This document shows, in pieces, positions 950 to 63,159 of a stretch of DNA of 64,000 bases. Every line of letters starts with the position of its first letter. The first letter of the stretch is position 1. Source of the stretch: Agapetus fuscipes (Eukaryota > Arthropoda > Insecta > Trichoptera > Glossosomatidae); assembly GCA_951799405.1 (NCBI GenBank), contig OX637345.1, positions 14,694,001-14,758,000 of the forward strand, in the 5' to 3' direction. The notes under the pieces are model-generated. The model ran no database searches. It was not told where the DNA came from and worked only from the letters and a program-made list of their open reading frames with translations. Both the position numbers and the translations under genes were made by a program.

Positions 950-997
950 TTTTCAGTAGCCAGAACATTGATTTCAGTCATTCTATTGAAATGTACT

Positions 998-1150
998 TCA
1001 GCCCCTAAGGGAATTTGAAAGCCCCACTTCTACTGAAGTGGTTGGCGTAAGGCCGGCTCCCTTACCTATAATAATAAATAGGTTCCACGCGCCACATGCG
1101 ACACCTTCGGGGCCAACACGGCAAGAAGTTTCACTATATGTGTAGCTTAA
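998..1150 (+). mobile_element. SINE-Y tail fragment
   Basis: Type-2 tail: inverted repeat cacttctactgaagtg, ggccggctcccttacc, ccttcggggccaacacgg, ending ctatatgtgtagctta. Confidence 0.7.
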
Positions 1151-3513: not shown

Positions 3514-3645
3514 ATCTCTCTATCTCCACTCCAGCCAAAGCACTACCAAAATTTGAGGTCCAGATACTCGTACCTATACCATTGATTCTCATATCTAAGG
3601 TCCGGCATTTTCAAGTTTAGTAAAGTTAACTAAAATGCACAAAAA

Positions 3646-7627: not shown

Positions 7628-8066
7628 AATGGGCCTGAATGGAAGGTTGTGAGTTCGAATCCCGGCGGAGCACAAAAAATATTCCATTTATATTTTCAAA
7701 TTTGCTCTTCGCTGGGTTGAAAAATTCATACACCTTTACCAATGACCGGTCACCTAAGGTCCATCCAGCTTTACAGCAACTGGGTCTTGCTTGACAACTG
7801 GCGCTTTGTAGCGACGACGACCAAGCTCGTAAAATGGTCGATCGCTCAATTGGTAGAATGCTTGCATTCCATGCCAAGAGCAAGGGTTCGATCAGCCTTG
7901 ACAAGAAATGAGAACCAGCCCCCTCGGGAGCTGAAAAACCCCCACTTCAACTGAAGTGGTTGGTGTAAATCTGGCCCCCTTACCTGTAAAAATAAAAAGG
8001 TTCGGAATCGCCACATGGGACAACGCAGGCAAGAAGTTACACAATATGTGTAGCTTAGTTTCGTTC
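7628..8066 (+). mobile_element. Composite SINE copy, 5' truncated
   Basis: Begins inside tRNA-like unit 1 (gaatggaaggttgtgagttc), passes the X body and the junction aagctcgtaaaatggtcg, contains unit 2 (atcgctcaattggtagaatg) with B box gggttcgatcag, and ends with gtgtagcttagtttcg. It is abutted by a reverse SINE head at 8067. Confidence 0.78.
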
Positions 8067-8143
8067 TGTGCTCCACCGAAAATTGAACTTATGACCTTCC
8101 GATTATGAGTTGGAAGCGTAACCACTAGACTACAGACCGATCT
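8067..8143 (-). mobile_element. SINE-X tRNA-like head fragment
   Basis: Reverse copy of tRNA-like unit 1 only (cgatcggtctgtagtctagt ... ggaaggtcataagttcaatt). Head-to-tail opposed to the preceding composite SINE. Confidence 0.65.
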
Positions 8144-10945: not shown

Positions 10946-11043
10946 ATTGTGTGGTAAGTGCCCTCTGCGGGCTTGGTCGTCGCTGTAGAAAGCGCCAATT
11001 CTCAAGCAAGACCCAGTTGCTGCTGGATGGACCTTTAGTGACC

Positions 11044-12557
11044 TTCTTCTTCTTGTGCCACTTCTAACGAAGATCGGCGATCATCATAGCTATTTTGAGT
11101 TTTGATGCTGCGGCTCGAAATAGGGACTTGGTGCTTCTGCCGAACCACTGTCGCAGGTTCTTCAGCCACGATGTCCTTCGGCGTCCCTGAGATCTTCTCC
11201 CCTCAATCTTACCCTGAATGATAAGATGAAGGAGACGGTACTTCTCATTTCTCATAATGTGACCGAAGTACATTAGCTTTCTCTGCTTAATGGTAGGCAG
11301 GAGCTCCTTTGTAGTGCGCATTCGTTGAAGGACTTCTTCATTGGTGACTCGATCACGCCAAGAGATCCGAAGCATTTTTCGGTATAGACACATCTCGAAT
11401 GCTTCAATACGTCTCTCCAGTGCCTGCGTGAGAGTCCATCCCTCCATACCATACAGAGCGATTGGGAAAACGTAGCACCTCACTATGCGCTTCCGGAGTT
11501 CAAGGCTTAAATTTCGGCACAACAGTAATTTGCTCATTTTAGCGAAGACATTTCGGGCTTGCTCTAGTCTGCTTCTGACTTCTTGACACATGTCCCACTT
11601 TTCGTTGACCACACATCCCAGGTACCTGTAACTAGTGCATCTTTCAATGCTTTCGCCATCTAGTTCTACATGTACGGAGGCGTTTGTGTTTCTGCTGATA
11701 ACCATGACCTTGGTCTTCTTAAAGTTAATGTTAATGCCAGCTTCTTTGCTAGCGACATTTATTCTGGTCAACAATGTTTGCAGATCCGCCTGAGTGTCAG
11801 CGAGTAGGACTGTGTCATCGGCATACCGCAGGTTGTTTACCAGCTGCCCGTTGACAACAATGCCTTCCCTAGCCTCATGAAGTGCTTGCGCCATGATCCT
11901 TTCTGAATATAGGTTAAAAAGTGTTGGTGACAGTACGCATCCCTGTCTAACTCCTCTTCTGATTGGTATTTGTCTGGTCTCTGAACTCTCTACAAGCACT
12001 GAAGCAGTTTGCTGCCAATATATATTAGCAATAATGCGAGTGTTTTTATCGTCTATCCCAATGTCTTTCAGTATACTGATCAGCTTGTCGTGTCTCACTC
12101 TGTCAAAGGCCTTTTCGTAGTCAATAAAGCAAACATAAACATCTTTATTCATATCGAGACAACGTTGCACTAAAACCTGTAATCCAAACAGAGCATCTCG
12201 TGTGCCAAAGCCGTTCCTAAAACCAAACTGTTCGGCTGATAACTGTTGGTCACACTGTTGGTATATTCTCTTTAGTATAATTTTCAGGAAAGATTTCATC
12301 ACATGACTCATTAAGCTTATTGTTCGATGTTCTTCACATTTTTTAGCATTAATATTCTTTGGTATAGTGATGAAGTAGGATTTTAACCAATCCTCTGGCA
12401 GATTACCACTTTCATACACTTTGTTGAATAGCAATGTAATCTTTTTGAGTGCATTTCCTTCCATTAACTTCAGAATCTCCCCGTGGATGTTGTCTGGACC
12501 GGGTGATTTCCCATTTTTTATTTGCTTGATAGCATACTCAACCTCATCTTGTAGGAT
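11044..12557 (-). mobile_element. RTE-like LINE, 5' truncated
   Basis: A 1514-bp non-LTR retrotransposon insertion. Perfect 11-bp target duplication ctttagtgacc (11033-11043 and 12558-12568). The 3' UTR is only about 20 nt after the stop and ends in an AAGAAGAA run, as is usual for RTE-clade elements. Truncated in the RT domain at its 5' edge. Confidence 0.85.
11064..12557 (-). CDS. RTE-like LINE ORF2 reverse transcriptase, C-terminal 497 residues
   Basis: Open without interruption from the truncation point (ILQDEVEYAIKQIKNGKSPG) to a TAG stop. RT motifs in order: KNGKSPGPDNIHGEILK (motif 0/1), QFGFRNGFGTRDA, VCFIDYEKAFDRVRH (catalytic D), RRGVRQGCVLSPTLFNLY, and NLRYADDTVLLA (YADD catalytic box), then KTKVM, the thumb/tail with YRYLGCVV, ALYGMEGWTL and GHIMRNEKYRLL. 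No endonuclease domain because of truncation. An intact frame suggests a fairly young copy; it cannot act alone. Confidence 0.88.
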   Translation of the reverse strand: MLQDEVEYAIKQIKNGKSPGPDNIHGEILKLMEGNALKKITLLFNKVYESGNLPEDWLKSYFITIPKNINAKKCEEHRTISLMSHVMKSFLKIILKRIYQQCDQQLSAEQFGFRNGFGTRDALFGLQVLVQRCLDMNKDVYVCFIDYEKAFDRVRHDKLISILKDIGIDDKNTRIIANIYWQQTASVLVESSETRQIPIRRGVRQGCVLSPTLFNLYSERIMAQALHEAREGIVVNGQLVNNLRYADDTVLLADTQADLQTLLTRINVASKEAGININFKKTKVMVISRNTNASVHVELDGESIERCTSYRYLGCVVNEKWDMCQEVRSRLEQARNVFAKMSKLLLCRNLSLELRKRIVRCYVFPIALYGMEGWTLTQALERRIEAFEMCLYRKMLRISWRDRVTNEEVLQRMRTTKELLPTIKQRKLMYFGHIMRNEKYRLLHLIIQGKIEGRRSQGRRRTSWLKNLRQWFGRSTKSLFRAAASKLKIAMMIADLR

Positions 12558-12690
12558 CTTTAGTGACCGGTCTTTGGTAAAGGTGTATTATGATTGTTTT
12601 ACCCCGCGAAGAGCATATTATTTGAAAATAAAAAAATTGTGCTCCGCCGGGATTCGAACCCACAACCTTCGTAAATCGTAAACCAACGAA

Positions 12691-17908: not shown

Positions 17909-19066
17909 TTAATCTAATTTGATTATGTCCTTGATGTGATATTTATTTATAACATTTGTGTCTATATCTTTTAATACATAGACTATCTTGCTAACTTTCT
18001 TTTCTATTCTGGCTTTGACAAATTTTGGAGCCAACTTTGTACAGAAGTATTTCCCTGCATTTGATTGTATGAAATTTTTACGCCATACAATATCCCCTTG
18101 ATCATAGACACGATTTGATCTACCTTTATTATAATAATTTGCATTTTTATTATATGCATCCCATAAATTTTCTGTTACAATTTTGTATAATGTGTTTAAT
18201 TCCTTCATTTTATCTTTATACATATCTCTATATTTATCTAAATCTTCCTTTGATTCTATTTCATCATTTACTATTTCACCATGAATTTCACCATTTAGTA
18301 CAATCTCCCTACCTCTTGCTAATACATTAGGTGTGTATCCTGTTGCTAAATTGACTGTATTATTTATTATGCTTTGTACTGAATCTAAAAAAGTATCCCA
18401 TTTTCTTTGTTCATTTTCAACAAAAATAGCTAATGTATATCCTATTGTTCTATTATATGTCTCTACATTATTGCACATGGGAGTATATAAAGTTGTATAA
18501 AATATTTTCTGTACTCCATATGAGTACATAAAATCTTTAAATGCATTTGACTTTAAATTCTTTCCATTATCTGTTATTATCGTTTGCGGTACTCCTTCTG
18601 TTAATTTAGTTCTATTTGTAATTTTACCTAATTCACTAATATTTTTGCTATTTGAATATGTAATTTTACTTATTAAACTCGGTTCTAATTCAAATTTTAT
18701 CCAAAAATCTATTCCAAAAATTAAGTCTTGTTGTAAACCTTGTAAAACATAAAAATCTACATGTTTTATTTGATTGTCACATTTTACCTCTAAATTTATT
18801 TTACCAAGTATTTTTATATTTTTACCATTTGCCAACGAGATATTTTCATGGGTTTTTATAATTTTGTAATTTCTTTGTAAAAAATAATCAAATGTTTTTT
18901 CATTGATTGCAGAAATAGATGCACCTGAATCTAGTAAACCTGTAAAATTTTTGTTCTCAATATTTACTGTTAAAAATGGTCTTTTATCAAATTGTTTAGC
19001 AAAAATGAGTGGTGCAATTTGATAATTTTTATTAAAAATTTGAATGAAATTAAGCCAGCTCTTCAT
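17909..19066 (-). CDS. Pol remnant: protease fused to C-terminal part of integrase (RT/RNase H deleted)
   Basis: 385 residues from the first Met; the frame is open back to the gag slippery site, in the -1 frame. Residues 30-125 are an aspartic protease (LLDSGASISAI with catalytic D46; closing IFGIDF at 116-121). RT, RNase H and the HHCC zinc finger plus first catalytic Asp of integrase are absent. From about 158 the integrase core resumes (IITDNGKNL with D166; NVETYNRTIG with E202) and ends in a GPY-like C-terminus (VYDQGDIVWRKN, LAPKFVKARIEKKV). The join is around residues 130-150 (nt about 18620-18680) and keeps the frame, so the protein is probably not an active integrase. Confidence 0.85.
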   Translation of the reverse strand: MKSWLNFIQIFNKNYQIAPLIFAKQFDKRPFLTVNIENKNFTGLLDSGASISAINEKTFDYFLQRNYKIIKTHENISLANGKNIKILGKINLEVKCDNQIKHVDFYVLQGLQQDLIFGIDFWIKFELEPSLISKITYSNSKNISELGKITNRTKLTEGVPQTIITDNGKNLKSNAFKDFMYSYGVQKIFYTTLYTPMCNNVETYNRTIGYTLAIFVENEQRKWDTFLDSVQSIINNTVNLATGYTPNVLARGREIVLNGEIHGEIVNDEIESKEDLDKYRDMYKDKMKELNTLYKIVTENLWDAYNKNANYYNKGRSNRVYDQGDIVWRKNFIQSNAGKYFCTKLAPKFVKARIEKKVSKIVYVLKDIDTNVINKYHIKDIIKLD

Positions 19067-19101
19067 TTCTGATTTTTGTGTTTGTACTGAAGGCCGACTA
19101 T

Positions 19102-20046
19102 CTACAAGTTTTTTGAATTACTATTGTATGTCGTATTTGTTCTGTTTTGTATATTTATATTTCTGTTCATTTTTGTTTTGTCTGTATAATCACTTTTTTT
19201 ATTTTTAACAAAACAATCTTTTTGTACATGTCCTGTACGCTTACATGAGTAACAGATTACTGTGTGTTTTTTAAAATTTCCATTTTTTATAAAACAATTT
19301 CTTTCCACATGTCCTCTTTTATTACAAAAGTGGCATACTATATTATTTGTGAAACTTCTACATTTATTCTGTATGTAATCTAATTTTCTATTTTTAGTCC
19401 AACAATCTATTTCATCATGTCCTAATTTATTACAAAAATTGCATTTTTGCATTACATTTTTCTCTTCTGTGTCATTCATTACATTTAAATTCTTACATTC
19501 ATTAAATTTGAAAAATGATTCAAACTTGCTACATATTGTAGATAATTCCTCTGTATTTTTAATTTCAGATGTTGTCAGTAAAGTTGCATATTTTTCTGAC
19601 AATCCATGAATTATTATGTCCATAAGTTCTTTATCATGCATTCTTTTATTTAATAAATTATTTTTTGATTTTACCTTTAAAATATAAACAGATGCATTAT
19701 CATGACCTTGTACCATATTTAAAATTTCTAACTTAAGATTCCTTTGAAAGTCATATTTTTCAAATTGTTGTAAGAATTTGGTTTTAAAAATTTTCCAATC
19801 AAATTCACAGTTAATTGCTCTGTACCAAGTTAACGGAAAATCTGTTAAAAATATAGGCATACACTCTACCAAATAATCTAATTTTAATTTGTAGACTTTG
19901 GCTAATTCTTCTAATCTTATTATAAATTCATTTGGTTCACTTTCACCATTAAAAGATATTTTTAATTTGAGAGGATCAAAATTTATGGACTCCATTGTGT
20001 TACTTTCTAAATCCTTTTTATTATTTATTTTTTTAGATTTCGTCAT
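19102..20046 (-). CDS. LTR retrotransposon Gag with three CCHC zinc knuckles
   Basis: 314 residues. Middle region (about 60-150) has the retrotransposon gag pattern FPLTWYRAI...F..FL.QFEKYDF...L..LNMVQGHD. C-terminal half has three CX2CX4HX4C knuckles: CNFCNKLGHDEIDC, CHFCNKRGHVERNC, CYSCKRTGHVQKDC, then an Asn-rich end. Gag packages the RNA into particles. The frame is fully open. The last codons carry A AAA AAC (19108-19114), so a fraction of ribosomes would shift to the pol frame. Confidence 0.88.
   Translation of the reverse strand: MTKSKKINNKKDLESNTMESINFDPLKLKISFNGESEPNEFIIRLEELAKVYKLKLDYLVECMPIFLTDFPLTWYRAINCEFDWKIFKTKFLQQFEKYDFQRNLKLEILNMVQGHDNASVYILKVKSKNNLLNKRMHDKELMDIIIHGLSEKYATLLTTSEIKNTEELSTICSKFESFFKFNECKNLNVMNDTEEKNVMQKCNFCNKLGHDEIDCWTKNRKLDYIQNKCRSFTNNIVCHFCNKRGHVERNCFIKNGNFKKHTVICYSCKRTGHVQKDCFVKNKKSDYTDKTKMNRNINIQNRTNTTYNSNSKNL
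19108..19114 (-). promoter_or_regulatory. -1 ribosomal frameshift site A AAA AAC
   Basis: The - strand reads TCA AAA AAC TTG TAG at the end of gag. A AAA AAC in gag phase is a canonical slippery heptamer. After a -1 slip the frame continues KKLVDSRPSVQTQKSEMKSW into protease without a stop. No downstream pseudoknot was modelled. Confidence 0.7.
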
Positions 20047-20492
20047 TTGCTGTATATTTTCAATTTATGCAATTAAAAAAAATCATTTCATTGAAAAAAT
20101 TTTTTTCATACAAATGAAATATAACACCATCTATATATATTTATCTAAACTGATTTAAAACAAACTGGTTCATATCCATTCTTCATTCTCCCGCGACGTT
20201 CGATTTTTGAATTTCCATTCTTCTGAACGTAATGTAGGTAGTTTGAATTCTCTCACCTTCAATATTTTCAAACAGCGTTTCAAATCTTGTAATTTCTTGT
20301 TGTTAATTGTATAAGTCGATGTCTTCACTAGCTTTTAAACGTGTTGATGCTTTCACAACCATAAATCTGTCCAATTTTAATCATTTCATATATTGTATTG
20401 TTTTCAATGTCATTTGTTGAAATTGACTGTCATTTGTTTTTGTTTGTGAAAAATTTTCTTCATAGGAATTTCATGTACAGATTTTTTCTTTT
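20047..20492 (-). other. Leader between PBS and gag
   Basis: About 445 nt of untranslated leader in the LTR element, expected to hold the packaging signal; no conserved motif recognised. Confidence 0.5.
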
Positions 20493-22193: not shown

Positions 22194-22765
22194 GAGCGGT
22201 CCGTAGTCCAGTGGTAACAATTCGAACTCGTAAATGGAAGGTTGTGGGTTCGAATCCCGGCGGAGCACAAAAAATATACCATTTATATTTTCAAACTTGC
22301 TATTCGCTGGGTTGAAAAATTCATAAACCTTTACCAAAGACCGGTCACCAAAGGTCCTTCCAGACTTACACCATCAGCAACTGGGTCTTGCTTGAGAATT
22401 GGCGCTTTGTAGCAATGACCAAGCTCGTAAAAAGACCAATCGATAGGTCAGTTGGTATAATGCCGGCATTCCATGCCGAGAGCAAGGGTTCGATCCTCAC
22501 CGAGGGTGTCAGAAATGATTTACCGTTTCGGTGTATATTTCAAACCCGAAATAAATACCAGCGAGGTGTACTCAGCCTTCACAAGAAATGAGAACCAGCC
22601 TCCTCGGGAGCTGGGAAACCCCCACTTCAACTGAAAGTGGTTGGTGTGAGGCCGTCTCCCATACCCTTAATAAAATAGGTTCCGAATCGCCAAATGCGAC
22701 CCCTTCGGGGGAAACGCAGGCAAGAAGGTACACTGTATGTGTAGCTTAGTTGCGTTGCGTATTGA
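22194..22765 (+). mobile_element. Composite SINE (tRNA-like 1 + tRNA-like 2 + tail), clean copy
   Basis: Best-preserved dimeric copy, without the 5S head. Unit 1 starts gcggtccgtagtccagtgg with B box gggttcgaatcccggc; the X body follows to gaccaagctcgtaaaaag; unit 2 starts accaatcgataggtcagttg with B box gggttcgatcctcacc; the Y tail carries an inverted repeat (cttcaactgaaag) and ends gtagcttagttgcgttg. Confidence 0.82.
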
Positions 22766-24688: not shown

Positions 24689-24868
24689 CTATCTATCTAT
24701 CTATTATCTATAATCTAAGCTGCAAGGATATGTTAACATTTAAGGCTCATATGAAATGCATGCCTACAGACAGGCACATATATATATATATATATCAGGC
24801 TTATTTATTTTTAATTGCACATGATAAGAGAGCGCCGTTTTTGTGTGTGTCACACCTCAAGGGCCCTC
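24689..24868 (-). repeat. Family B tail, (TA)n and SINE-X tail
   Basis: 24689-24785: tctatctatctattatctat and aatctaagctgcaaggat (reverse family B end), then (TA)n; 24815-24868: reverse type-1 SINE-X tail (gtgtgtcacacctcaaggg). Confidence 0.55.
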
Positions 24869-24873
24869 TCCGA

Positions 24874-25365
24874 TCACGGATAAGACTTTTTGAAAAGGTG
24901 CGTCTTAAGAGCTCCGCGAAATATGCCCATAGATTTGGAGTTCTTCACTCCGGGTGGCAGTCTGTTCCACTCCACCGGACCCGCAACACAGAAAGCACGG
25001 TCTCCAAAATTTGTACGGATCTGACGGTGCGGCTGAACCAAATTGATCGCACCATCGCCCGCAGATCTGAGTGTCTGCCTCCTCACACCCATCTCAACAG
25101 GCGAAATCATGTCAGTCAGATAAGGTGGAGCCACGCCATTGATGGCTTTATATACCATCAGACAAACACGGTAGACCACCCTCTCCGGGAAACGAAGCCA
25201 GTGTAGTTTTTTTAACAGCGGAGTGATGTGAGCGAATTTGGATATCCCGAATATGAGCCTTGCTGCTGAATTTAACACGGATTGAAAGCGGTTGAAATGC
25301 TTCTTTGGCTGCCCACTATAAAGCGTTGAGCAATAATCAATCCGAGACATCACAAACGCACTCAC
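24874..25365 (-). pseudogene. CR1-like LINE ORF2 C-terminal domain
   Basis: Continues the RT above after the frameshift: SRIDYCSTLYSGQPKKHFNR, LNSAARLIFGISKFAHITP, APPYLTDMISP, GDRAFCVAGPVEWNRLPPGV, LKTHLFKKSYP then stop. This is the typical thumb/tail of CR1-group elements. Confidence 0.82.
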
Positions 25366-25399
25366 CAGGGTCTTAACCGCATCTGACGGAAGACACTTT

Positions 25400-26080
25400 C
25401 TAATCGCCTTTATTTGGCGCAGTGAAAAAAAAGGAGGAAGCTATTGTGGCATCTATTTGCCTTTCCAATGTCAGGTTCCGATCCAGTAAGATTCCTAGAA
25501 GTCTCACCGAATCGGAAGGCTGGATCAGCTTACCTCCTATAGAGAGTGCTACCCCATTGACCAATAGATGGTCGCGCCTAGATGTGGCTGCCCAGAGTAT
25601 CTCCGTCTTATCCATGTTCAGGATTAGGCCATTGTTCACCATCCACTCACCGACCTCCGAGATACATCCAGAGACCCTACAACTGAGGTCCTCAGCCATG
25701 TCTGGCCGACAGTGAGAGTATATTTGCCAGTCATCTGCATATGAATGTGAGATGAGGCCCCATTTTTCAACAATACTCTCAATGTCAGCAGTATACAATA
25801 TAAAAAGGATCGGACCCAGCACAGAGCCCTGTGGAACCCCAGAGGACAGCGAGTAGGTAGGTGAGACACTATCACAAACACGCACCGCCTGCTTGCGTTC
25901 CACCAGATAGGAAGAGAACCATGCTAAAGCTCCGCCGGTCAACCCATACGACACCTCCAACCTTTCAATAAGAATCAGATGACTTACTGTGTCAAAAGCC
26001 GCACTCATGTCAAGAAGCGCCAGCAAGGCCAGATCGCCACACTCTACAGCCGATATCATATCCGATACAAGCTTGAGCAT
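25400..26080 (-). pseudogene. CR1-like reverse transcriptase, frameshifted
   Basis: RT palm with SGVPQGSVLGP and YADD boxes; open frame for 226 codons, ending out of frame just past the A8 run. The second part is 24874-25365 (163 codons). One indel separates them, so inactivation is recent. Confidence 0.82.
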
Positions 26081-26086
26081 ACCGGT

Positions 26087-39600: not shown

Positions 39601-42600
39601 CATTAACAAAAATATATTGATAGAGTTGTCCCTAGCAACTCAGCTTGTGATGTCATAACGTTTTTGTTTTTGTGGAATGTGCTGACTACAGCGTTCGTCG
39701 GCCTAAACTCAGCACAAATTTAAATCAGCTAAAATCACACTCGTACGAGACTATTGCCCTTAGCAACAAAAAACAAAGTATTTGTTGGCCTATTTTCTAG
39801 CAACACCCCCGTGTAGTGTCACAATTTTCTCTATGTCAAATTATGTGCGGACATAGTAGTCTGTTAATTTCTGTGTGGCCAGCTCACAAAAGTTTTTATT
39901 TCTATTTTGACAATTCTATTTCATTTAAATTGTTTTTGTTTTTCAGGTTGTCGACATGTGCGCGATCAGTGGGGTCATATCAGAATTGGAAAATATCAAC
40001 ATCACAAAAGAGCTATTGGAGGTTGGTGAACCTGTTACTACATCTAGATCAAATGCTCCCTTCAGGAAATAACCTTGAGTGGCCCGTATGGAGACGACTA
40101 AATAGGTTGAGAGCTAATGTTTGAAGAGCCCAGGTCAACATGTTGGGATTTGGAGTGGGGATTTCCCAGCTCCCGAGGGGGCTGGTACTCATTTTGTGTG
40201 AAGGCTGAGTAAATATACTTTTGGATTTGAAATAAACACCGAAACGGAAAATCATTTCGGACACCCTCGGTGGGATTCGAACCTGAGCTCTCGGCATGGA
40301 ATGCAAGCATTCTACCAACTAGGCTATCGACCGTCTTTTTTTTCCATTTGCGACTATAGATTCTTCTATTTGCGTGGTGCAATAGGAATTTAAGCAGTGT
40401 TTTATTGTCAAAGTACTTCTTCTATAAATCACTTCATGCTATTTCATTCATCGGGTAATGCAACTAAGCTTCACATATAGTGTAACTTCTTGCCGCGTTA
40501 TCCCCAAAGGGTTTCGCATGTAACGAGTGGAACCTATTTCTTTTTACACGTAAGCGGGCCAGCCTTAAGACAACCACTTCAGTTGAAGTGGGGGGTTTCC
40601 AGCTCCCAGGGGGGCTGGTTCTCATTTCTTGTGAAGCGCACGCTCTCGGCATGGAATGCAAGCATTCTACCAATTGAGTTATTGACCGGACAAAGGACGC
40701 GTCAAACCCAAAAATTGTGGAGGGAATGCGGTGAGATCTGCAGTGGACAGATGAGGTCTGAAACAAGAACTACGATATTAATAACAGACTAAATAATTTA
40801 TATTGTTGTATTCCAACAGACCACCCGACTGGGCAAGCATGTAAACGAGCTGCGTCGTCACACCAGAGACTTGGCATTAGCGAGGCGGGCTAAGCTGCTC
40901 GTCAAGCGATGGAGGGACCTCGTCATACCCTCTGCTCCAGGTGAACTTATTATGCAATAACTAGGCTAACTAGGTAAGCCAATCAAACCCTTTCAAGTGT
41001 GATCATTAATCTATGACTGTTGCCATGTGTAATTATTGCTGTTAATTTTTTAATGTTGTCTATATTTCTTGTTTTGGAAAACTCCTCACTTGTGGCAATA
41101 TCGTGTTAAGATCCTCACTATTGATGAGGTTGTGCACACCATACCAGCCATTACTTAATACTCTAGTACATCTGCTAAATCCTTACACTTTGGTTATCAA
41201 TCCAAGTCAGAGCTTGTTACCGCTTGCGAAAGAACTCCAGGGATAGAAAGATCACAGTACACCTTATTTTTGGACACAAATCGCTATCAAGTCGCCTTCA
41301 GGTTGTAAGGAATTAGAACAGAATAGCGCTTCAGATGTTGAATCTAAGTATTAAATAATTGCAGTGAAAAGAACACACTTCTGTCAATCGTGTGGATAGT
41401 TTTTTTTTATCTTTTTAAAGTCACATAAGCTAACGTTAAAAATACCAAGCCCAAATGTATTAATTAGACTACTTGTCGATGCAAACAGTTTGATTTTGCA
41501 TCCGGCTGTAGATATTTAACTCAAAGTAATTAATCAAAAAACAAAATTGTTGGAGAGTTGCTTTCCGGGATCTGCTACCCATGATCTATGGAAGCTGGAG
41601 CTTCCAGACGCTATGCCGTTTTCAAAAGGGCCACATTGGGCATGTAGAATCTATATATTTTTACAGACAGTGAATCAGGGAGCTTGCTTTAACGCCAACC
41701 ATTTTATTTCAGGTTGGGGCTTCCCTGCCACCTAGAGAGTAAGGTCTCATTTATTGTGAATACAAAGCTATGTTTTATGTTAAGGTTCCAAACCCTCAAA
41801 TGCCTCTTCTGGTGTGGACTCTTCTCGGAAACCCTCGCCCCTGGCAACCAGGGGAGTCAGCACTGCCGTCACACCCTCGGTAAGTCGCCTCATTCTCCCA
41901 CAATACCTCCGATGGTCAGCTGTGCGTTCGCTCAATTTGCATGATCATTGTTCTTTGGTGTTGCCAGGTCACACCGAGGTTATGCAGTCCACTGGTGCCC
42001 CAGCAGGGAGTCAGCCTCGCACAGAATCAAGGTACAATTTTTTAATGTTTCATTAAAGATTTACTGCCTTTTCTTGATGCTGTTTTTTTCCATTCTTCAA
42101 AGTGATTTCTTACTGAGAAGTACCTACCCCCAGTATAGACAAACTGGTTTATGCTCACATGTCTTGATAGCTTACTTCATCCGGCTCAAAAACCTCGAAA
42201 GGTCAGGGCCACCCGTACCACAATCCTCCAGGGCTACATGTCTTGGGGAGTAAAAAATATATGGAAATTTGCGTTGCCATTTGTGTTCACTGGAGGCGCT
42301 GTTGACTCTTTGTGTGGAATGTTCATATACTTATATGTCTATTTTTCGGAACCATTTCATTAAAAAAACTTTCTTTCACTGACGTATGAGATAAAAAAAA
42401 ATGGACAGGAGATAGGTTTTGTATCTTTGGAGATATTTAATATCAAAACCAAGAGTTGGGTGGCTGGAGTATGGCAGAAAATCGCTGGAACCCTAGAGAT
42501 TAAAACCTAGTATTCCGCTCAAAAAAGGTATAGCTCAACTGATGGAGTTATTGTATTAAGGACTTATTCAACGTAATGATTAAATTGTTTTTCAGGTTCC

Positions 42601-45600
42601 CTAACCTCGTCTCCGGTGCAACCTCTGCAACAGCGCCGGCAACCCCTGTCGTCTCCAGCTCTTCAAAACCTTTCACAGAGCGGGCAGAGGAGCGTGGCGG
42701 CAACGTCACCCATCTTGAAACGGCCGCCCGTCAATAGCATCAACACGATGCCGACAAACGCTAACAACGCCTCGCCAAATCTTAAAAACCTCTCGCCAAA
42801 CCTCAAGAATGTCTCGCCAAATTTGAAAAACATATCGCCAAACTTGAGAAACATCTCGCCCGGCCTGAAACCGGGTGTAATTTTTAATACAACATCTCCG
42901 AATGTTAGAAATCTATCGCCAAATGTTAGAAATCTATCCCCGAATGTTAGAAATCTATCCCCAAATGTTAGAAATCTATCGCCGGGGGCTAAAGATGTGT
43001 TAATCAAGAATGCGGTGCGCAGCCAACCTTCCGCTAAAGTAGGTGTTGTGAAAGATCTCGGGTTTGATTCCTGGAGTTCCATTGATACCGTGAACATCGG
43101 GGCGCCCAAGAAGCTGATGGAGGGAGACTCGGATTCGGATGTCATCTTGGTGGACGACGATAGTCAGGATGAAGATGCGAAACCGGGGAAGCAGCCGTTT
43201 ACGAATGATAGAGCAAATATTTCACCAATCGTAAAAGGTGAGTGGATTTTTTTGGCATGATTTCAGCTATTACGACTGTGATCTATGTTGCATGTACCCA
43301 AACCCTCCTCCAAAACCTACCTGGCCTGTATCAGAAGGACCCACAGCGCATGGAAGCTCATCTAATCTAATCTAAGTTACAAAGGCATATTACATTTAAG
43401 ATTCATATTAAATGCAATTCCACAAGCAGACATGTATGAGGTCACGCTTACACATGCCGCATGTGGACTTAAACATGAAAACCCTCAAATGAACATAAGC
43501 CCTATAACTCTTGCCGACTTTCCCTGAAACAGGGGTGACATTGGTAAAGTGAACCATTTTTTACCCTATGTGTGGTCAGCCAGCAAAAAAAATTCAAAGT
43601 ACTGAAGGGTTGAGGAATGAATCTGCCTTTATGAAGACCGACCACCAGAAGTCTGTTCATCTTACACCAACTGGTTCTTGCTTGAGAATTGGCGTTTTCT
43701 ACAGTGACGACCAAGCTTGCAGAGGGCTCTTGATGTGTGAATCACACAAGCGCTCACCAGACAAATCAGCCTAGTATTATTATTATTATGTTTTCTTAGG
43801 TGGGAAAAGGCCTCGTTCACCCATAAACGGTGCATCTCCCAGTGCGGTGCTGGAGACAGAGGATCCTGGAGTGAGGAGACAGGCAAAGAAAGCGAGGAGG
43901 GAACCAGGAGGACGGAAATCCAAGAAGAGAAGGTATTCTTTTGTAGTTATTGTTTTAATATGTTTGTGAAGAGGAATGCAATTCACCAACCTTTTTTGCC
44001 TGGCCCGAAACAGGTACCTATTAACATTATCAATTTATAATTAATTATTTTATATTTTAATGGATTATTAATTAAACTTTCCAATGATATCTGTTGAAAG
44101 AGTGTCAAAGTTATCATTGAGGGCATATTGACGGGTTTTTTTTTGAGCTCTGTGGAGAATCAAACTCATGATCTTCGAAATGCGAGTCCATAGCCTTAAC
44201 CATTGGACTACAGACCAGTCTGTGTTCTAATGGGCATATAGGCCCAATGGGCAGGTAGATACATAAATGTTTTGAGTAGATAAGCTTTGTAATATAAAGA
44301 AAACCTTTTTGTTGTGCAATGATAAAAAATATTGAGAATTTATTCAATTCTCAATACTCAAAAAGGTAAATTAATGCTTTGAGTTTATTGGTTGGTACTT
44401 TTCTCCAATAGGAGTATGTTAAACGATTTTCAATCTTATTGCTGTGCAAAAACTAAATAAAAACTAAAAAATCATGATCAGTGCTATGAGCGTTCCGGCA
44501 CCCTAGAGGTTAAGAATGCCAATCTGCATTATGTTCACCGAGTCTCTTCTTAAATTTGTTCAACTAATTGTATCTTCTTACATTTCAGAAATCACACAAA
44601 GTCAGAGAACCGCACAGTGGATCACAGCCTGGATCCCGTCGGTTCTCCCTTTCTTCCAATTAGCTCCGCGTCCACCTCACCGGCGCTCGGAGCGTCCTTA
44701 GCTCTTCGCAACGGCCTCAACCAGGGGCCGTCTCCCCTTCAGGCCTGCCCAGTCGTTGTCGACGATGTAGACAGCCGGTCACCAGCCCCGATCCTGGCTT
44801 TACCCGACCCCAAACCGGCTAAAGCCAGCAGAAAGAATGGCTGCAAGAAACCAGCTGTGGACATGGACGAATACTCAAGGTTTATCAAGAATAAAATACC
44901 AAAAGGCGGGAAGAAGTTAAAGTCGACGCAAGAACTGCTGGACGATATCCAAGCGAGGAGTGCAGGGAATGCGAAAGCGGCCGTGGAGAAACTAGAAAAA
45001 GAATCTGCACCGAAAGAGGACTTCCTGACTGCGTACGATAGCCAAAAGCTGCATAAAAAGGAGTTCCTCTCAGCGCCGATTGTAACGGATATCATTGAAT
45101 TGAATGATTCAAATTCCAGTGGAAAGGTGACTGTGGAATCGGTTAAGGATACATCGCTGGAGCTTAAAACAGAGAAGGTAGAGGCTAAAGAGCAAGATGG
45201 CCCTGTAAAGTTTGAACCCCTGGAAGTTATCTTAGCTAAGTTACCCCCGATCAATCGGGAATGGGCCAATGAAGAGGAATATGTACCCGTGTGTACATGT
45301 AAGTTGATATACAACACTCCTGAAGTTACAGAAATCAAAATGCCTTCCCCACCGCCTGTCAAAAGATCAATTTTCGAATTGGATTATGAAGAAGCGCCAA
45401 AAGAGGTTAAAACTGAGGATGAGACCTTAATATCAATACCCGCCTTGCCGCTGTTTGAAGAAAGATTAGATCCGGATTGTGAAGCTGCTGAAATTTACCA
45501 CAAGAGACCGTCAAATGTAGCCGATAACCAAGTGTTTGCTCTGCACAATTGTTATGTACCAAACGTGAATGGAAATCGGTGTGTAAAGGACGCGAAGGCA

Positions 45601-46665
45601 CAACCAAATACAGTCACTTGTAAAATGAATGAATGGGGCTTGAGACCTTTTTATGATTGCAGCAATGATTTGTTTCATAGCGTCGTTCCCAAGTATAACT
45701 ATTTAGATTATAGCTTAGATCGTTGCGTTAAGAATCTTTCAAAACTGGAATTTGACAAGTACGAACCGGCGGAAGCGACGGCGAATTCCGAAGAGTGGTA
45801 TTTGGAGCTGGAAAGAAAGCATCCTCCGCCTTTGTGTGTTGAAGACTTGAAGACTGAAGAATTTCACAGCTCGGCAGACCTGCCGTTTAGTGAAAAACCC
45901 GGCGCGGAAGGTGATAGTGTTATTAAAATTGAACCTAGTGATAGCAAAGACGATGTAAATTTAGATAGTAATACTAGCCTAAACTGTGGCGATCACAACG
46001 ACGCCCCACAGGAGATGGACACGTCAACCAACAACAATGATCCGAGCTTCAACAAGTTGGAAGAAATGGAGGACGAAGATGACGAGGCTTACGACCAAGA
46101 AGACTATGAAGACGATCCAGAAATTTCAACGTGTCTCGTTAAGCAGGAAACTGAAGCGCTCCCAAAGAAACCGCGATTTGCGTACGGTGACAGTGTAATG
46201 TTGCTCCCGTTAAGTTTGACCGCGATCAACGCGTCGCCCGGTGCCGAATTCAACCTAGACAATGACTTATCGAGTGTGTTTCGGACAGAAAGCAATCAAT
46301 TGGTGTTTGACGAGATTACGTACGACGCTTTGTACCCGGACGCGACCATAGCCGCCGCCGACATTCTGGAATACAAAGACATAACGAATACAGTTACCGA
46401 GAGGTTAAAACGTTCGGGTAAAGCCGAGAGTCCTGTGATTTCTTCTGAGAGTGACGACGCCAATTGTGATAAAGACGTGGTGAAGAGGGAGGGGGAAGTT
46501 GGTGCCTTGGTGGGCGTTGGTGTCGCCTGCGACCGGGACGCGGGATGCCCGGTCTGGCTGGGCAGGTCGCAGCCGACACCGTTCAGGGAGTGGCACGAGC
46601 CGGTACTAACTAAATCTTACAACGATGAGCCGTTAACTGTGCTGCCCTATGTCGTTATAGACTGA
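36558..46665 (+). CDS. MED26: MED26, Mediator of RNA polymerase II transcription subunit 26 (8 coding exons)
   Basis: Coding exons: 36558-36620, 39947-40021, 40820-40940, 41785-41879, 41968-42031, 42596-43237, 43800-43932, 44589-46665. They sum to 3270 nt, i.e. 1089 residues plus TGA, and every junction keeps phase with AG/GT borders. MED26 is a nuclear Mediator subunit that in other animals bridges Mediator to TFIID and elongation factors through its N-terminal TFIIS-like (LW) domain. Seen here: LW helices in exons 1-3 (ELTNRLLNALDSNYN, VISELENINITKELLE, TRLGKHVNELRRHTRDLA, AKLLVKRWRDLV), matching the animal pattern ..ITKEALE..TRLGK..AKKLLRSWQKLI; a Ser/Pro-rich linker; a basic KKARREPGGRKSKKR patch (about 382-397); the STQELLDDIQAR block (about 510-521); an acidic run (about 889-910); and a C-terminus ending LPYVVID. 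Human MED26 is about 600 residues; insect forms are longer. Exons 4 and 5 rest on splice logic only. The introns are full of SINEs and MITEs. Confidence 0.93.
37613..37862 (-). repeat. Family B full-length copy in MED26 intron 1
   Basis: ttaatctaagctgcaaagat through ccaacctataagtcaaggaa. Close to the copy at 16150. Confidence 0.72.
38103..38590 (+). repeat. Family B split by a MITE, MED26 intron 1
   Basis: 38103-38238 (ttggtcggtatgaggctgat ... gtaagtacacattc) and 38493-38590 (atttgtaagcgcgaactaca ... cttagattatagatt) are one copy interrupted by 38239-38492. Confidence 0.7.
38239..38492. mobile_element. MITE (254 bp) in family B
   Basis: Ends cgctgccttagttcttgttt and aaacaagaactgggggagcg, inverted repeat of about 32 bp reaching ...atacgcca. 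Flanked by attt on both sides (38235-38238, 38493-38496). Internal sequence not recognised. Confidence 0.7.
38575..38810 (+). repeat. Family B copy in MED26 intron 1
   Basis: ttataggtcggtatgaggct, tccctgtttcagggaagagt, agcgcgaactcacatgtatc, ending gcagcttagattata. Confidence 0.68.
39947..40021 (+). CDS. MED26: MED26 exon 2 (LW domain core)
   Basis: 75 nt, phase 0 in and out, after a strong polypyrimidine acceptor (tgtttttgtttttcag). Encodes VVDMCAISGVISELENINITKELLE in two readable parts (VVDMCAISGVISELE, NINITKELLE), which align with the second and third LW helices of animal MED26. The donor is gttggt, weaker than consensus. Confidence 0.9.
40140..40335 (-). mobile_element. Stand-alone SINE-Y in MED26 intron 2
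   Basis: Reverse: starts at tRNA-like unit 2 (acggtcgatagcctagttgg; B box aggttcgaatccc) with A-rich DNA, not the SINE-X body, upstream; then the Y tail (tttccgtttcggtg, ctcgggagctgggaaat). Shows that Y exists separately. Confidence 0.75.
40455..40689 (-). mobile_element. Stand-alone SINE-Y, internally deleted
   Basis: Reverse: gtccggtcaataactcaatt, a deletion removing the B box, then the Y tail (inverted repeat cacttcaactgaagtg) to gttgcatt at 40455. About 130 bp before exon 3. Confidence 0.72.
40820..40940 (+). CDS. MED26: MED26 exon 3 (end of LW domain)
   Basis: 121 nt, phase 0 in and phase 1 out, acceptor ttccaacag, donor gtgaac. Encodes TTRLGKHVNELRRHTRD followed by LALARRAKLLVKRWRDLV. 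The TRLGK and AKLLVKRWRDLV blocks are the most diagnostic part of the TFIIS N-terminal domain in this gene. A SINE-Y copy lies about 130 bp upstream in intron 2. Confidence 0.93.
41785..41879 (+). CDS. MED26: MED26 exon 4 (Ser/Pro-rich linker)
   Basis: 95 nt, phase 1 in and 0 out. The acceptor atgttaag is weak; the donor gtaagt is consensus. Encodes a Ser/Thr/Pro-rich piece (SKPSNASSGVDSSRKPSPLA, then TRGVSTAVTPS). The phase fit with exons 3 and 5 is the main support. Skipping exons 4 and 5 together also keeps the frame (both flanking joints are phase 1), so they could be an alternative cassette. Confidence 0.7.
41968..42031 (+). CDS. MED26: MED26 exon 5
   Basis: 64 nt, phase 0 in and 1 out, acceptor ggtgttgccag, donor gtacaa, after a short 88-bp intron. 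In the spliced frame it reads VTPRLCSPLVPQQGVSLAQNQ. The other frames look equally plausible as low-complexity protein, so the choice rests on phase continuity with exons 4 and 6. Confidence 0.65.
42596..43237 (+). CDS. MED26: MED26 exon 6 with SPN heptad repeats
   Basis: 642 nt, phase 1 in and out, acceptor tgtttttcag, donor gtgagt. Encodes residues about 140-353. Residues about 199-274 are a tandem heptad SPN(L/V)(K/R)N(L/V/I): four SPNLKN-type units, a spacer, four SPNVRNL units. The DNA of the second block (about 42895-42990) is a near-identical 21-bp repeat. Ends with an acidic Ser/Asp tract (DSDVILVDDDSQDED). Confidence 0.9.
43355..43580 (-). repeat. Family B copy in MED26 intron 6
   Basis: atctaatctaatctaagtta, cacaagcagacatgtatga, ccctgaaacaggggtgacat. 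Confidence 0.7.
43655..43790 (+). mobile_element. SINE-X 3' part abutting MED26 exon 7
   Basis: cttgcttgagaattggcgtt, gcagagggctcttgatgtgt, caaatcagcctag, then (TTA)n ending at 43789, nine bases from the splice acceptor. Confidence 0.75.
43800..43932 (+). CDS. MED26: MED26 exon 7 (basic patch)
   Basis: 133 nt, phase 1 in and 2 out, acceptor ttttcttag, donor gtattc. Encodes GGKRPRSPINGASPSAVLE and a strongly basic end (RRQAKKARREPGGRKSKKR) that looks like a nuclear localisation signal. A SINE-X tail ends only about 9 nt before the exon. Confidence 0.87.
43962..44222. repeat. Dispersed repeat and SINE head scrap in MED26 intron 7
   Basis: 43962-44013 matches 898-949 (gtgaagaggaatgc). 44140-44222 is a reverse, decayed tRNA-like unit 1 (actggtctgtagtccaatgg). 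Confidence 0.5.
44589..46665 (+). CDS. MED26: MED26 exon 8 (middle and C-terminal regions, stop)
   Basis: 2077 nt from acceptor cttacatttcag to TGA at 46663-46665, residues 398-1089. Contains MDEYSRFIKNKIPKGGKKLK and STQELLDDIQAR (the conserved MED26 middle segment), a Glu/Lys-rich region, the acidic stretch EEMEDEDDEAYDQEDYEDD, and the C-terminal block FREWHEPVL...LPYVVID. The frame is uninterrupted for 692 codons and contains no transposon insertion, as expected under purifying selection. Confidence 0.95.
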
Positions 46666-48431: not shown

Positions 48432-48612
48432 GCGATACCTTAAAAGTAAAACTGAATAACTGACATGTTGAGTTAACCAGGGTTTCTCAGATAAATACAC
48501 GGTGTTTCTATTTTCTATTAGAGAAAACCCTACAATACAAAATTGTGAAAATCCTGTAGTTCATGAGCACTTCTTTGTTATTAGTTCACTTACTATGAGA
48601 CGTTACACCCTA

Positions 48613-49241
48613 AAACGCAACTAAGCTGCACATAGTATAACTTCTTGCCTGCGTTATCCCCGAAGGGGTCACATGTGGCGCTTCGGAACCTATTTATTTT
48701 TACAGGTAAGGGGGCCGGCCTCACACCAACCACTTTCAGTTGAAGTGCGGGTTTCCCAGCTCCCGGGGCGGCTGGTTCTCATTTCTTGTCAAGGCTGAGT
48801 AAACCTTTGAGATTAAACCCTTGCTCTCGGCATGGAATGCAAGCATTCTACCAATTGACTATTGAGCTATTGACCTTTTTACGAGCTTGACCGTCGTCGC
48901 TACAAAGCGCCGATTCTCAAGCAAGACCCAGTTGTTGTAAGGTTGGATGGACCTTTCAGTGACCGGTCTTTGGGAAAGGTTTATGAATTTTTCAACCCAG
49001 CGAAGAGCACATTTTGGGAAATATAAATGATATATTTTTGTGCTCCGCCGGGATTCGAATCCACAACCTTCCATTTACGAGTCTGAAGTGTTGCCACTAC
49101 GGACTACGGACCGGTCCAAGAAATGCCAACAACACGCGGTGTACCTAGCGGTCACCCATTCAAGTAGCATCTGCGCCTAATGTTGCTTAACTTCGGTGAT
49201 CTGATGAGAACCGGTGCTTTCAACATGGTATTGTCTTTGAC
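48613..49241 (-). mobile_element. Full-length three-headed composite SINE (5S rRNA + tRNA-like 1 + tRNA-like 2 + tail)
   Basis: Read on the - strand: 5S rRNA-derived head (49241 down to 49124, 118 nt, starting exactly at the 5S 5' end); tRNA-like unit 1 with B box ggattcgaatcc; a 200-bp body; tRNA-like unit 2 (degenerate here, box A atagctcaa); then the type-2 tail ending gttgcg. It is flanked by a 16-bp direct repeat, gagacgttacacccta (48597-48612) and gagaagttacacccta (49242-49257). It interrupts a TA-flanked MITE (48432-49328), so both borders are defined independently. Confidence 0.85.
49124..49241 (-). repeat. 5S rRNA-derived SINE head (not a functional 5S gene)
   Basis: 118 nt matching insect 5S rRNA along its length: ttgaaagcaccggttctc, atcaccgaagttaagcaac (box A region) and ttgaatgggtgacc (box C region), ending gttggca. 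Several substitutions and the direct junction to a tRNA-like unit show it is retroposed, not an rRNA gene. Confidence 0.85.
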
Positions 49242-49328
49242 GAGAAGTTACACCCTATAAATTGTTTTATCAATGATTTCTTCAATCAGTGAATCAGCAC
49301 TTATTCAATTTTACCTTTGAGGTGGCGG

Positions 49329-52687: not shown

Positions 52688-53037
52688 CTTTGTGCCAATT
52701 CTCAAGTAAGACCCAGTTGCTGTAAGGCTGGATGCACCTTTGGTAACCAATCTTTGCTAAAGGCAGATGGATTTTTCAACCCAGCAAATAGCTATAATCT
52801 AAGTTGCAAAGATATATTACATATTAGATGCATCCCCATAAGCAGACACATATAAGTCACTGACACATGCTGCATGTGGACTTGCCACATGAAAACCCAA
52901 CCTCAATTGAACATAAGCCCTGCAACTCTTGCCAACCTTCCCTGAAAAGGGGTGAATTTGGATAGGTGAACCATTTTTTAACAATTTGAAAATTTATTGT
53001 AATTTTTTGTGCTTCTCCTGAAATGGAACTCACTACC
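52688..53037 (-). mobile_element. Decayed SINE-X interrupted by family B
   Basis: 52688-52792 (reverse body: gtgccaattctcaagtaaga) and 52986-53037 (gtgcttctcctgaaatggaa) are one SINE; family B occupies 52793-52985. Confidence 0.6.
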
Positions 53038-53039
53038 TA

Positions 53040-53428
53040 GAAGTTAAGCAACATTGGGCGCGGACAGTACTTGGATGGGTTACCGCTCAGGTACACCGCG
53101 TGTCGTTGGCATCTTGGACCGGTCCGTAGTCCGTAGTGGCAACACTTCGGACTCGTAAATGGAAGGTTGTGGATTCGGATCCCGGCGGAGCACAAAAATA
53201 TACCATTTATATTTCGAATGTGCTCTTCGCTGAGTTGAAAAATTCATTAACCTTTATCAAAGACCGGTCACTGAAAGGTCCATCCAACCTTACAACAACT
53301 GGGTCTTGCTTGAGAATTGGCGCTTTCTACAGCGACGACCAAGCTCGCAGAGGGCTCTTGAGGTGTGATACACACAAAAACAGCGCTCACCAAATAAATC
53401 ATCCTAATATTATATTATTATTATTACC
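53040..53428 (+). mobile_element. SINE-X copy with 5'-truncated 5S head
   Basis: Starts inside the 5S sequence (gaagttaagcaacattggg, 53040), runs to its end (gttggca, 53111), then tRNA-like unit 1 (gtagtggcaacacttcgg; B box ggattcggatcc), the X body, and the type-1 tail ending caaataaatcatcc and (ATTATT)n at 53400-53428. Third independent copy of the 5S-tRNA junction. Confidence 0.82.
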
Positions 53429-56532: not shown

Positions 56533-56995
56533 TTGATACCTTAAAGGTAAAACTGAATAAGTGACATATTAAACTAACATGGATATCTTGGAAAAAAATA
56601 TTCTTATGCGCACGGCAGCCATTGGTAAGTTTGTTAATGTGATTTATTGTTATTATTTATGTTGCCTTACTTTTTGTTATAAACTTATTCATATTTAGGT
56701 TAGGTTCATCAATTTGCACAGCGCCATGTCTATAAGTTTGGAACTTTGTGAATAAAGTAAGTCAACTTTGCCGTGCACATAATAACAACCCTTGGAAAAA
56801 ATGCATGTTTTTCCCTATTTTCAATGACAGAAAACACAAAAAAGTGTGAAAATCCTGTAGTTTACAACTTTGTCATGAGTATTTCCTTATAATTAGCTCT
56901 CCAACTATGAGACGTTACTCCCAATAAAATCTTTTATCCACAATTTCTCAAATCGGGGAATCAGCACTTATTTAATTTTACCTTTAAGGTGGCGA
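56533..56995. mobile_element. TA-type MITE-D copy with nested MITE
   Basis: Ends ttgataccttaaaggtaaaa and tttacctttaaggtggcga. Contains a second inverted-repeat element at 56604-56782 (ttatgcgcacggca / tgccgtgcacataa). Confidence 0.68.
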
Positions 56996-57215
56996 TGTAT
57001 TAGCAGGTAGTATATTTCCGAAAACAGTAAAAAATTTCTTTAAATTTTTAAGATTAATGCTTGTGTATTTTTTTGTTTCTAAGTCTGCTCTATCTTGACA
57101 AAAAACAAGAAGTTTGTCAGTGTTTTGTTACAATTTCTCCATTGTTGACATTAAAAATGTTGATTTCTCAAAATTGGTTATGTGTGGAGAAAGCAGGCTT
57201 TGGAAATATATCATA

Positions 57216-57413
57216 TTGCCACCTTAAAGGTAAAACTAAATAAGTGCTGATTCAATGATTTGAGAAATCGTGGATAGAACATTTTATTGGGAGTAACTTT
57301 TCATAGTAAGTGAACTCTAATTAAGTATAAAGAAAATGAAAAACTTGCATTTATCTGAGAAACCAATTTTAGCGTAATATGTCACTTATTCAGTTTTACT
57401 TTTAAGGTATCGA
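57216..57413. mobile_element. TA-type MITE-D, short copy
   Basis: 198 bp; ttgccaccttaaaggtaaaa to tttacttttaaggtatcga, TA on both sides; in opposite orientation to the copy at 56533. Confidence 0.7.
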
Positions 57414-61640: not shown

Positions 61641-63159
61641 TTATAATGTTTTGCAATAATTTGTAATCAAAACATTTATGATTCTTTTTAAATAATGATA
61701 TCATATAATGTATTGTTTATTTTTAAATAAATCTCTACTTACGCTTAAATAAATAAAATGAAGAGCACAGTCAACAAATCAGTCAAAAATATGAATTTGC
61801 TGGAAATACAGCAAAGATTTATTTTTATTTTCTTTAAAAATTAAAAGTTCATTGTTTGTAGTTTCCATCAAAAAGTAAATTTGTAATAATTTTCATAATT
61901 TATTACTTTTTTTTTCTACTAAAGAGAAATAAGCTACTGTTTCTGTACGGATTTAAGATTGAGAATCTTCAAGGATTTTCTGCTGGTTTCAGAATTTAAA
62001 TCTCTCTTGGTTGGATTTTAGTTCAAGCTTTATTCTTCGTTGTAGTTTGGGTAAATGAAAAAACCCAGAACCTAGTTTTTATAACCGCTTCTTCCTACCA
62101 TCATAAAAATGATGTGTCAATAATAAATTATAATAAAACAATGTTGGTTATATACACAACATACACATTTCTAACAGCCCGAGCGGCATAAACATTCGAT
62201 TGGTAGGTATACAAATAAATAAATAATCAAGTTTCATAAATAGAATGTTTGAAAGTGTAATTTTTGCAAAACGGATTTCCAATATTTTCTTTCTCTACTA
62301 AGAAATAGATAATAAAATTTCAAAGTCTATCTAATCGTTTTTTTAATTAAATTTATTAATACTAGAAATAAATTTTCATATTAATTTTTAACATTCAAAT
62401 ACATTAACATTTTTTTGAAGCAATTAAAAAAATGATTTTAAATCGATTTGAATTTTTTCTTAACTATGAAATTAATATGTAAAATTTTACCCTTAGTAGA
62501 TAGACAATATATTTTTTTAATTTTTATTCATAAGAAGCAATACCTTATTCATTTTTTATAATCCAGGACATTTAGAATCAATTTTTGACAAAAAAATCAA
62601 CTGACGCTGCCTTTAAATAAAGTTTACTACTTTCACTTTCACTTTTATGGTCTCAGTAAAGCATTCAACAAATTGTTTTTGTGTTTTTTGGGTAATACCA
62701 TGGTCTATTTGCAGCTTTTCTACGTCGCTTTGATAACTCGCCTTCAGAATACTTTCTGCCCGTGAAAGCAAAACGTCGGCAGATAAAAAAGCTGCAAATA
62801 GAGCATGGTCTCACCTTAAAAAAAACCACAAAGAGACAATTCACTATGCTGCCTTTCGTTGTAACCAAGATACAGGTAAAAACACTAAAAAAAATGAACA
62901 AAAAGTTCAGAGACAAAGGTATTTATTTGTTATTGATGTTCAGATAAGCTTTTTTGTCAAACTTGATTTATTTGATTTGATGTTATATCTAATATGCCAA
63001 AATAAAAATGCACTTTATTTTTTCCAGTTGGCCAACCTTTCTTACCTTTGAAATCTTGGGTTTTAGTTATTTTTTGAAGGAATGTTATGTTATATAGAGA
63101 GAGATAAATTCAGACACGTAGGGGCATAAAAACCCTGTACGATCATCAAGGCTATACAA
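61641..63159. other. AT-rich, one short inverted repeat
   Basis: 62697-62817 has 26-bp arms (accatggtctatttgcagct / agctgcaaatagagcatggt) around a 60-nt loop. No gene recognised. Confidence 0.45.

Follow-up and report, generated by a model that had tools for sequence, protein, structure and literature searches.

A SINE with a 5S rRNA head and two tRNA-like units in Agapetus fuscipes: probable origin as a chimera of two resident SINE classes

SINE families are thought to originate by the exchange of modules, and the intermediates of such exchanges are seldom seen. AmnSINE1 carries one tRNA-related part behind its 5S head; it is not known to have a second tRNA-like unit, in contrast to the element described here, to which it is likened by architecture and not by body sequence. 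The closest precedents are the following. The elements of the AmnSINE1/DeuSINE (SINE3) group share the 5S-derived head and have partner LINEs of the CR1 type (PMC3747384, PMC5753468). HaSE3, a 5S/tRNA-SINE chimera from Helicoverpa armigera for which the authors proposed template switching, consists of a 5S-related 5' region followed by the body and tail of HaSE1 (PMC3272025). Both elements place a 5S head in front of body and tail sequences belonging to a tRNA SINE of the same genome; the difference, drawn from the description of HaSE3 only, is that the present element keeps a whole tRNA-related unit behind a full 118-nt 5S sequence and adds a second tRNA-like unit. Sbg9 from Blattella germanica, a dimer of Sbg1 and Sbg8, is likewise a low-copy dimeric insect SINE made from two co-resident SINE families, whereas the excerpted text describes tRNA heads only and no 5S head (PMC9191728). 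The tripartite template-switch chimera of Magnaporthe grisea is also a multi-part insertion between direct repeats (identical, 14 bp), in which three transcript copies were fused, but these derive from another RNA, a SINE and a LINE and not from two SINE halves (PMC2104539). In LINE-1 chimeras, 5S parts are mostly truncated and antisense, unlike the 5S part of the present element (PMC13174262), and for similar chimera events in hagfish SINEs, DNA recombination was named as the other possibility (PMC7245038). No description of a SINE of the 5S+tRNA+tRNA type was found among the open-access titles and abstracts searched. Given the dimer and chimera precedents, the architecture is best regarded as a variant of known designs and not as a new class.

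The element lies in a 64,000-nt stretch of Agapetus fuscipes DNA, referred to as the window. A first-pass annotation had read positions 48613-49241 as a 5S head starting at 5S base 1, a tRNA-like unit, a body, a second tRNA-like unit and a tail. All modules were recovered in that order (Table 1), and the 118-nt head indeed spans the 5S model RF00001 from position 1 to 120 of 120. The annotation had left the strand unstated; the element runs on the minus strand (49241→48613), and the 629 bp of the span are the element without its duplications. It is short, its junctions are dispersed in thousands of copies, and its head derives from a pol III gene, namely a full 5S, which (Rfam 5S model 1-120) is also the kind of head that characterizes SINE3, or 5S SINEs. 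As to a partner LINE, a LINE 3' UTR in the window matches tail A, whereas the element itself ends in tail B.

Table 1. Coordinates of the modules of the element, its flanking duplications and related SINE and LINE sequences in the 64-kb window.
Feature	Position	Strand	Evidence
5S rRNA-derived head, complete	49124-49241	minus	Rfam RF00001, 73.4 bits (gathering 38), model 1-120 of 120
Linker between 5S and unit 1, 7 nt (2-nt-longer form)	49117-49123	minus	long form matched 2,686 times in the genome, <=2 mismatches
tRNA-related unit 1, A box split by 2-nt insertion	~49040-49116	minus	nhmmer 49116-49040; boxes; tRNA nature from sister copies
Body, ~158 bp, common to the SINE classes here	48882-49039	minus	nhmmer 49039-48882
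Mosaic breakpoint interval	48904-48934	minus	5S-class alleles up to 48935, unit-2-class alleles from 48903
tRNA-like unit 2, boxes only, B box decayed in this copy	~48809-48875	minus	nhmmer 48867-48815; boxes; tRNA tests negative
Tail B	48613-48795	minus	nhmmer 48795-48614; 3' end of other copies similar
Target-site duplication, 5' end of element, abuts 5S base 1	49242-49257	minus	repeat score, joined-flank alignment
Target-site duplication, 3' end of element	48597-48612	minus	repeat score, joined-flank alignment
Sister class: full 5S + unit 1 + body + tail A	1164-1578	minus	nhmmer, Rfam
Sister class: 5S decayed at 5' end + unit 1 + body + tail A	53040-53409	plus	nhmmer
Presumed other parent class: unit 1 + body + unit 2 + tail B, without 5S	22194-22756	plus	nhmmer
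5'-truncated unit 1–body–unit 2–tail B copy	3645-4121	minus	nhmmer
5'-truncated unit 1–body–unit 2–tail B copy	7638-8065	plus	nhmmer
Stand-alone unit 2 + tail B, without upstream body	40457-40687	minus	nhmmer
LINE remnant (RVT_1), 3' UTR matches tail A	24794-26086	minus	domain + tail match

The tRNA nature of the two units was judged from tRNA models and promoter boxes. Unit 1 of the element itself gave no match to the tRNA model. The sister unit 1 copy at 44145-44217 reached 24.1 bits (E 0.0025 in a 121-base search; gathering score 29) and the copy at 22197 reached 15.2 bits (E 3.8), while ARAGORN read an 11-copy consensus as tRNA-Thr(CGT)-like at relaxed scoring and returned 0 genes at default. 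The sister copies thereby lend fair support to a tRNA derivation of unit 1. For unit 2, an A-box/B-box layout is present in related copies, and neither the tRNA model nor ARAGORN matched the copies tested or a 7-copy consensus, so that the term tRNA-like refers here to the boxes. If the element is viewed as a tRNA dimer with two tandem units, unit 1 is thus identified by model in sister copies and unit 2 by boxes only. Four A-box/B-box pairs occur in the window, against a mean of 0.01 and a maximum of 1 in 100 mononucleotide shuffles, and two of the four are unit 2 copies (15754, 40326). In the element under study, a 2-nt insertion splits the A box of unit 1, the B box of which has one mismatch; in unit 2 the A box is kept, with three mismatches in the B box. 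Three potential internal promoters, as put forward in the first-pass annotation, are therefore not borne out in this copy, with the A box of unit 1 split, the B box of unit 2 decayed and unit 2 unrecognised as a tRNA, and the phrase is better taken as a statement on ancestry. Transcription by pol III would have started from the 5S boxes, the tRNA boxes or both.

The same modules recur throughout the window in other combinations. The nhmmer profiles found 18 body stretches, which were read as 15 loci by counting three body pairs (2138/2772, 9263/10164 and 12670/11043) as single elements split by later insertions. Fourteen loci reach the end of the body; eight of them continue into tail A (at 11043 for 21 nt only) and six into unit 2. 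Nine reach the start of unit 1, three with 5S ahead and six starting within 3 bases of the unit 1 start, a tally that excludes the body-less unit 1 matches at 8142, 14363 and 44220. Among the nine loci reaching both ends, all four combinations of 5S or no 5S with tail A or unit 2 are found: 5S with tail A twice, 5S with unit 2 once, and no 5S with tail A or with unit 2 three times each, or twice each without the interrupted copies 2138 and 9263, which were joined by inference. One of the two 5S–tail A copies has a complete 5S head (1461-1578, Rfam 88.8 bits), and the decayed 5S of the other (53005-53111) matches weakly at 25 bits, below the gathering score. Body-less unit 2–tail B sequences lie at 40687 and 58195 and, with part of the tail only, at 40332. 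The match of tail A to a LINE remnant falls in the 3' UTR just behind the RT reading frame (24873-24830, 91%), so this remnant is likely a relative of the LINE partnering the tail A class. For tail B, no such partner could be recognised in the window.

Several arrangements were noted alongside. A LINE with a long open RT frame (RVT_1; 10956-12670, minus strand) interrupts a SINE body and is bordered by perfect 11-bp repeats GGTCACTAAAG, and its 3' UTR is only ~20 nt long with AAG repeats at the end. Upstream of the truncated unit 1 at 4121, 20 nt (4126-4145, minus strand) resemble the body in the same orientation (18/20, a level reached in 0 of 300 shuffles), which gives the appearance of a fusion between two SINEs. 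An inverted piece of tail B (989-1149, plus strand) stands directly beside the 5S–tail A copy at 1578, and an inverted piece of unit 1 (8068-8142, minus strand) directly beside the tail B end at 8065.

Both two-part junctions of the element are abundant in the genome, which comprises 618,241,784 bases (618 Mb) in 148 contigs. The 5S–unit 1 junction matched 5,882 times with at most two mismatches, and together with the 2-nt-longer linker form carried by the window copy 8,568 times; the body–unit 2 junction matched 6,003 times with at most three mismatches. The control gave 0 matches for each of the two linker forms and for the body–unit 2 junction. In 30 sampled 5S–unit 1 loci (exact matches, the first 30 in genome order and all on contig C1), the 5S profile match begins at base 1 in 19. 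Sixteen end in tail A, including L041, which has no 5S profile match, and none ends in unit 2. A third tail follows in eight loci by motif and in three more by eye (L031, L050, L057); of the remaining three, L060 has lost all but the end of that tail, L058 has an interrupted body and L038 has none. The 30 sampled body–unit 2 loci were not random, 22 of them being exact matches to a form close to the window copy. A 5S stands ahead in two (L061 and, in truncated form, L075), 19 have no 5S and start at unit 1, and nine are truncated, among them L078, which lies near another body and was placed from the locus map.

The third tail, tail D, is a 3' end closing in poly-A that matched 13,369 times with at most three mismatches, whatever precedes it, and at least 100 times exactly. 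At least 11 of the 30 5S-junction loci carry it behind the same cassette of 5S, unit 1 and body (e.g. L039, L044, L049). Mean pairwise identity over unit 1 and body is 0.942 for tail D (12 copies), 0.928 for 5S–tail A copies and 0.888 for unit-2 copies without 5S; the tail D class may be the youngest, since its copies are the most alike among the classes sampled. What is most telling about the SINEs of this genome is that a single 5S–tRNA cassette occurs with three alternative 3' ends. Short SINE patterns had 0 exact matches in viral contigs and 0 in prokaryote genome contigs.

The body of the window copy changes allegiance near its 3' end, inside an interval of 31 nt. Left of the breakpoint, it is identical to the two 5S–tail A copies of the window at 160/171 and 159/171 positions, and the four unit-2 copies with good coverage of the region reach 84.3% at best (e.g. 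150/178). Right of the breakpoint, it agrees with two unit-2 copies at 28/30 and 27/30 positions, against 19/30 for both 5S–tail A copies, in a stretch that takes in the first bases of the differing tails, including the start of tail A. The other three unit-2 copies of the window reach 21/30, 21/33 and 19/30 there, so that only two of five are closer to the window copy on the right side. A single-breakpoint test over 13 body sites gave no significant result (54,901 of 200,000 shuffles did equally well), because only one of the 13 sites lies right of the breakpoint; the case for a mosaic rests on the change of modules together with the grouped alleles. At two left-body sites (49021 and 49014) the window copy has the unit-2 allele, and long-linker tail A copies also read CCAAATG there. 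The linker and left-body alleles of the window copy are in fact those of the long-linker tail A copies. Of six long-linker places fetched, three reach tail A (L094, L095, L096) and three are broken earlier.

The triple form is not unique to this locus, as the window alone would suggest: a search with the whole element brought up six further loci and the junction samples two more. Of 9,663 candidates for this probe, 40 were scored; seven, the window copy included, run from 5S through tail B, and the main rows of the remaining 33 start at query positions 114-131, near unit 1. With the two loci from the unit 2 sample, 5S and unit 2 were thus seen together at nine loci, those other than the window copy being L002-L007, L061 and L075, all with the 5S head followed by unit 1, body and unit 2. 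The first-pass annotation had named the lack of any genomic copy joining the 5S head to both units as the result that would speak against it; such copies exist, though as a minority in the samples. An abundant family of triple elements is unsupported, with nine loci seen in samples against thousands of each two-part junction.

These loci seem to comprise at least three mosaic types. The long linker (with a single change in L002) and a left body of the tail A type occur in L001, L002, L003, L005 and L006, all of which switch in the same short interval. A short linker combined with a different body type is found in L004, L007 and L075, and L061 represents a third arrangement, in which tail B is absent behind unit 2. 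It is conceivable that the triple form is a small subfamily, in which one founder chimera copied itself and the window copy is a descendant. This would agree with the chimeric origin proposed below, the difference being whether the triple form is itself mobile; we regard it as a close contender while leaning slightly against it. Five of the nine loci share not only the long linker and the switch interval but also the same pattern at the 12 columns that separate tail A-type from tail D-type bodies. Against common descent, L006 is less clean, with three 5S-class alleles and four unit-2-copy alleles at nine separating sites, and the unit 2–tail B halves of the four testable long-linker copies resemble one another (0.909, 6 pairs) no more than they resemble copies without 5S (0.923, 168 pairs). 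No derived site specific to these four copies was found in that half, and the 3' halves scatter in a tree, though a star-like SINE phylogeny could do likewise. A broader picture, in which a mobile three-part subfamily from one founder is accompanied by a free exchange of 5' and 3' modules (tails A and D, unit 2–tail B) and template switching in the body is a recurrent source of new SINE families, may be proposed tentatively, as something that has nearly as much for it as against it.

The window copy entered its site in one piece. It is flanked by a 16-bp direct repeat with one mismatch, GAGA[C/A]GTTACACCCTA, as expected of a SINE with target-site duplications. The repeat scores 13, against a maximum of 11 among 5,000 random window pairs and of 12 among 4,000 mismatched flank pairs from other copies. 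One of its copies lies immediately next to 5S base 1, the other immediately next to the position at which further tail B copies stop as well. When the flanks were joined with a single repeat copy, single alignments spanned the junction, one to 56815-56994 (77% over 186 columns), the other to 57316-57218 (86% over 99 columns). This "empty site", ~8 kb away, is a related repeat and not an allele of the insertion site. From these continuous alignments it follows that the whole element, from 5S through both units to tail B, came in together, in agreement with the single retroposed unit of the first-pass annotation, for which target duplication and related empty site now both speak. A duplication arising by chance, which that annotation had considered as a way to be wrong, was discarded on the random pairs, the mismatched flank pairs and the joined-flank alignment. 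The related sites belong to an inverted-repeat element (56895-57316) with 102-nt arms that are 86% complementary and 218 nt apart, and by this resemblance the SINE is placed within a relative of it.

Duplications are scarce beyond this locus. None of 14 other window copies tested scored above 7, and in a wider sample five of 72 copies scored at least 8, against 2.45% expected from mismatched flanks; the window copy and L028 (15 bp, perfect) stand out. Of eight 5S–unit 2 copies tested, seven showed no duplication that could be detected. Most copies may be too old, or the target process may leave little trace. This scarcity weakens a general claim on mechanism, not the claim for the window locus.

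The position of the duplication also bears on a mosaic made after insertion, through gene conversion in place or by an unequal exchange involving a second SINE copy. Ectopic exchange could occur given the high copy numbers of the parent families, and several mosaic types exist; yet the duplication abuts 5S base 1 and the end of the tail B family, so that a converted resident element must already have begun at 5S base 1, and we consider this origin improbable. Separate SINEs nested or lying side by side and mimicking one element, as suggested by interrupted elements of the window such as the LINE inside a SINE body, can be set aside as a vanishingly small chance, because both two-part junctions recur in thousands of copies (6,003 for body–unit 2, 8,568 for 5S–unit 1) and the related, non-allelic empty site reveals one insertion.

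The module order, the single insertion, the mosaic alleles, the two abundant two-part junctions and the other 5S–unit 2 loci were observed directly, and from them we infer template switching by LINE machinery on pol III transcripts. With good though not full confidence, the window copy is thus read as a chimeric SINE with a 5S–tRNA 5' half and a tRNA–tRNA-like 3' half, most likely formed by a LINE template switch or else moved as an already chimeric copy. The 5' half (5S, unit 1 and most of the body) would come from the large 5S–tRNA class ending in tail A, and the 3' half (body end, unit 2 and tail B) from the large tRNA–tRNA-like class that mostly lacks 5S. The pol III-type RNAs of both classes would have the body in common, and a LINE reverse transcriptase that began on a tail B RNA could switch to the RNA of a 5S–unit 1 SINE inside this nearly identical body. 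Insertion of the joined cDNA by target-primed reverse transcription would then generate the 16-bp duplication. In the alternative case, the copy that was transcribed and moved would itself have been a chimera of this make. The full 5S copies joined end to end to unit 1 would fit a still earlier switch, in which reverse transcription passed from a tRNA-SINE RNA, at its 5' end, onto the 3' end of 5S rRNA.

With both parents present in thousands of copies, at least three apparent mosaic types and chimeric copies in one genome, the rate of module exchange, the preference for breakpoints and the success of the products should be open to direct measurement.

Other features of the window were recorded in passing. 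A LINE open reading frame had 1,782 matches in the protein search. Frames for gag, a zinc knuckle and an aspartyl protease mark an LTR-type retrotransposon at 17912-20064 (minus strand), which lies largely in the lowest-GC 4-kb bin of the window. Sub-threshold microRNA-family matches on both strands at 62677-62831 (~42 bits, against 139 required) are probably due to a palindromic repeat. A 703-aa open frame at 44554-46665 (plus strand), which may be Mediator-like, had no Pfam match and four homologues at 40-49% identity in the protein search, and is likely an exon of a conserved gene.
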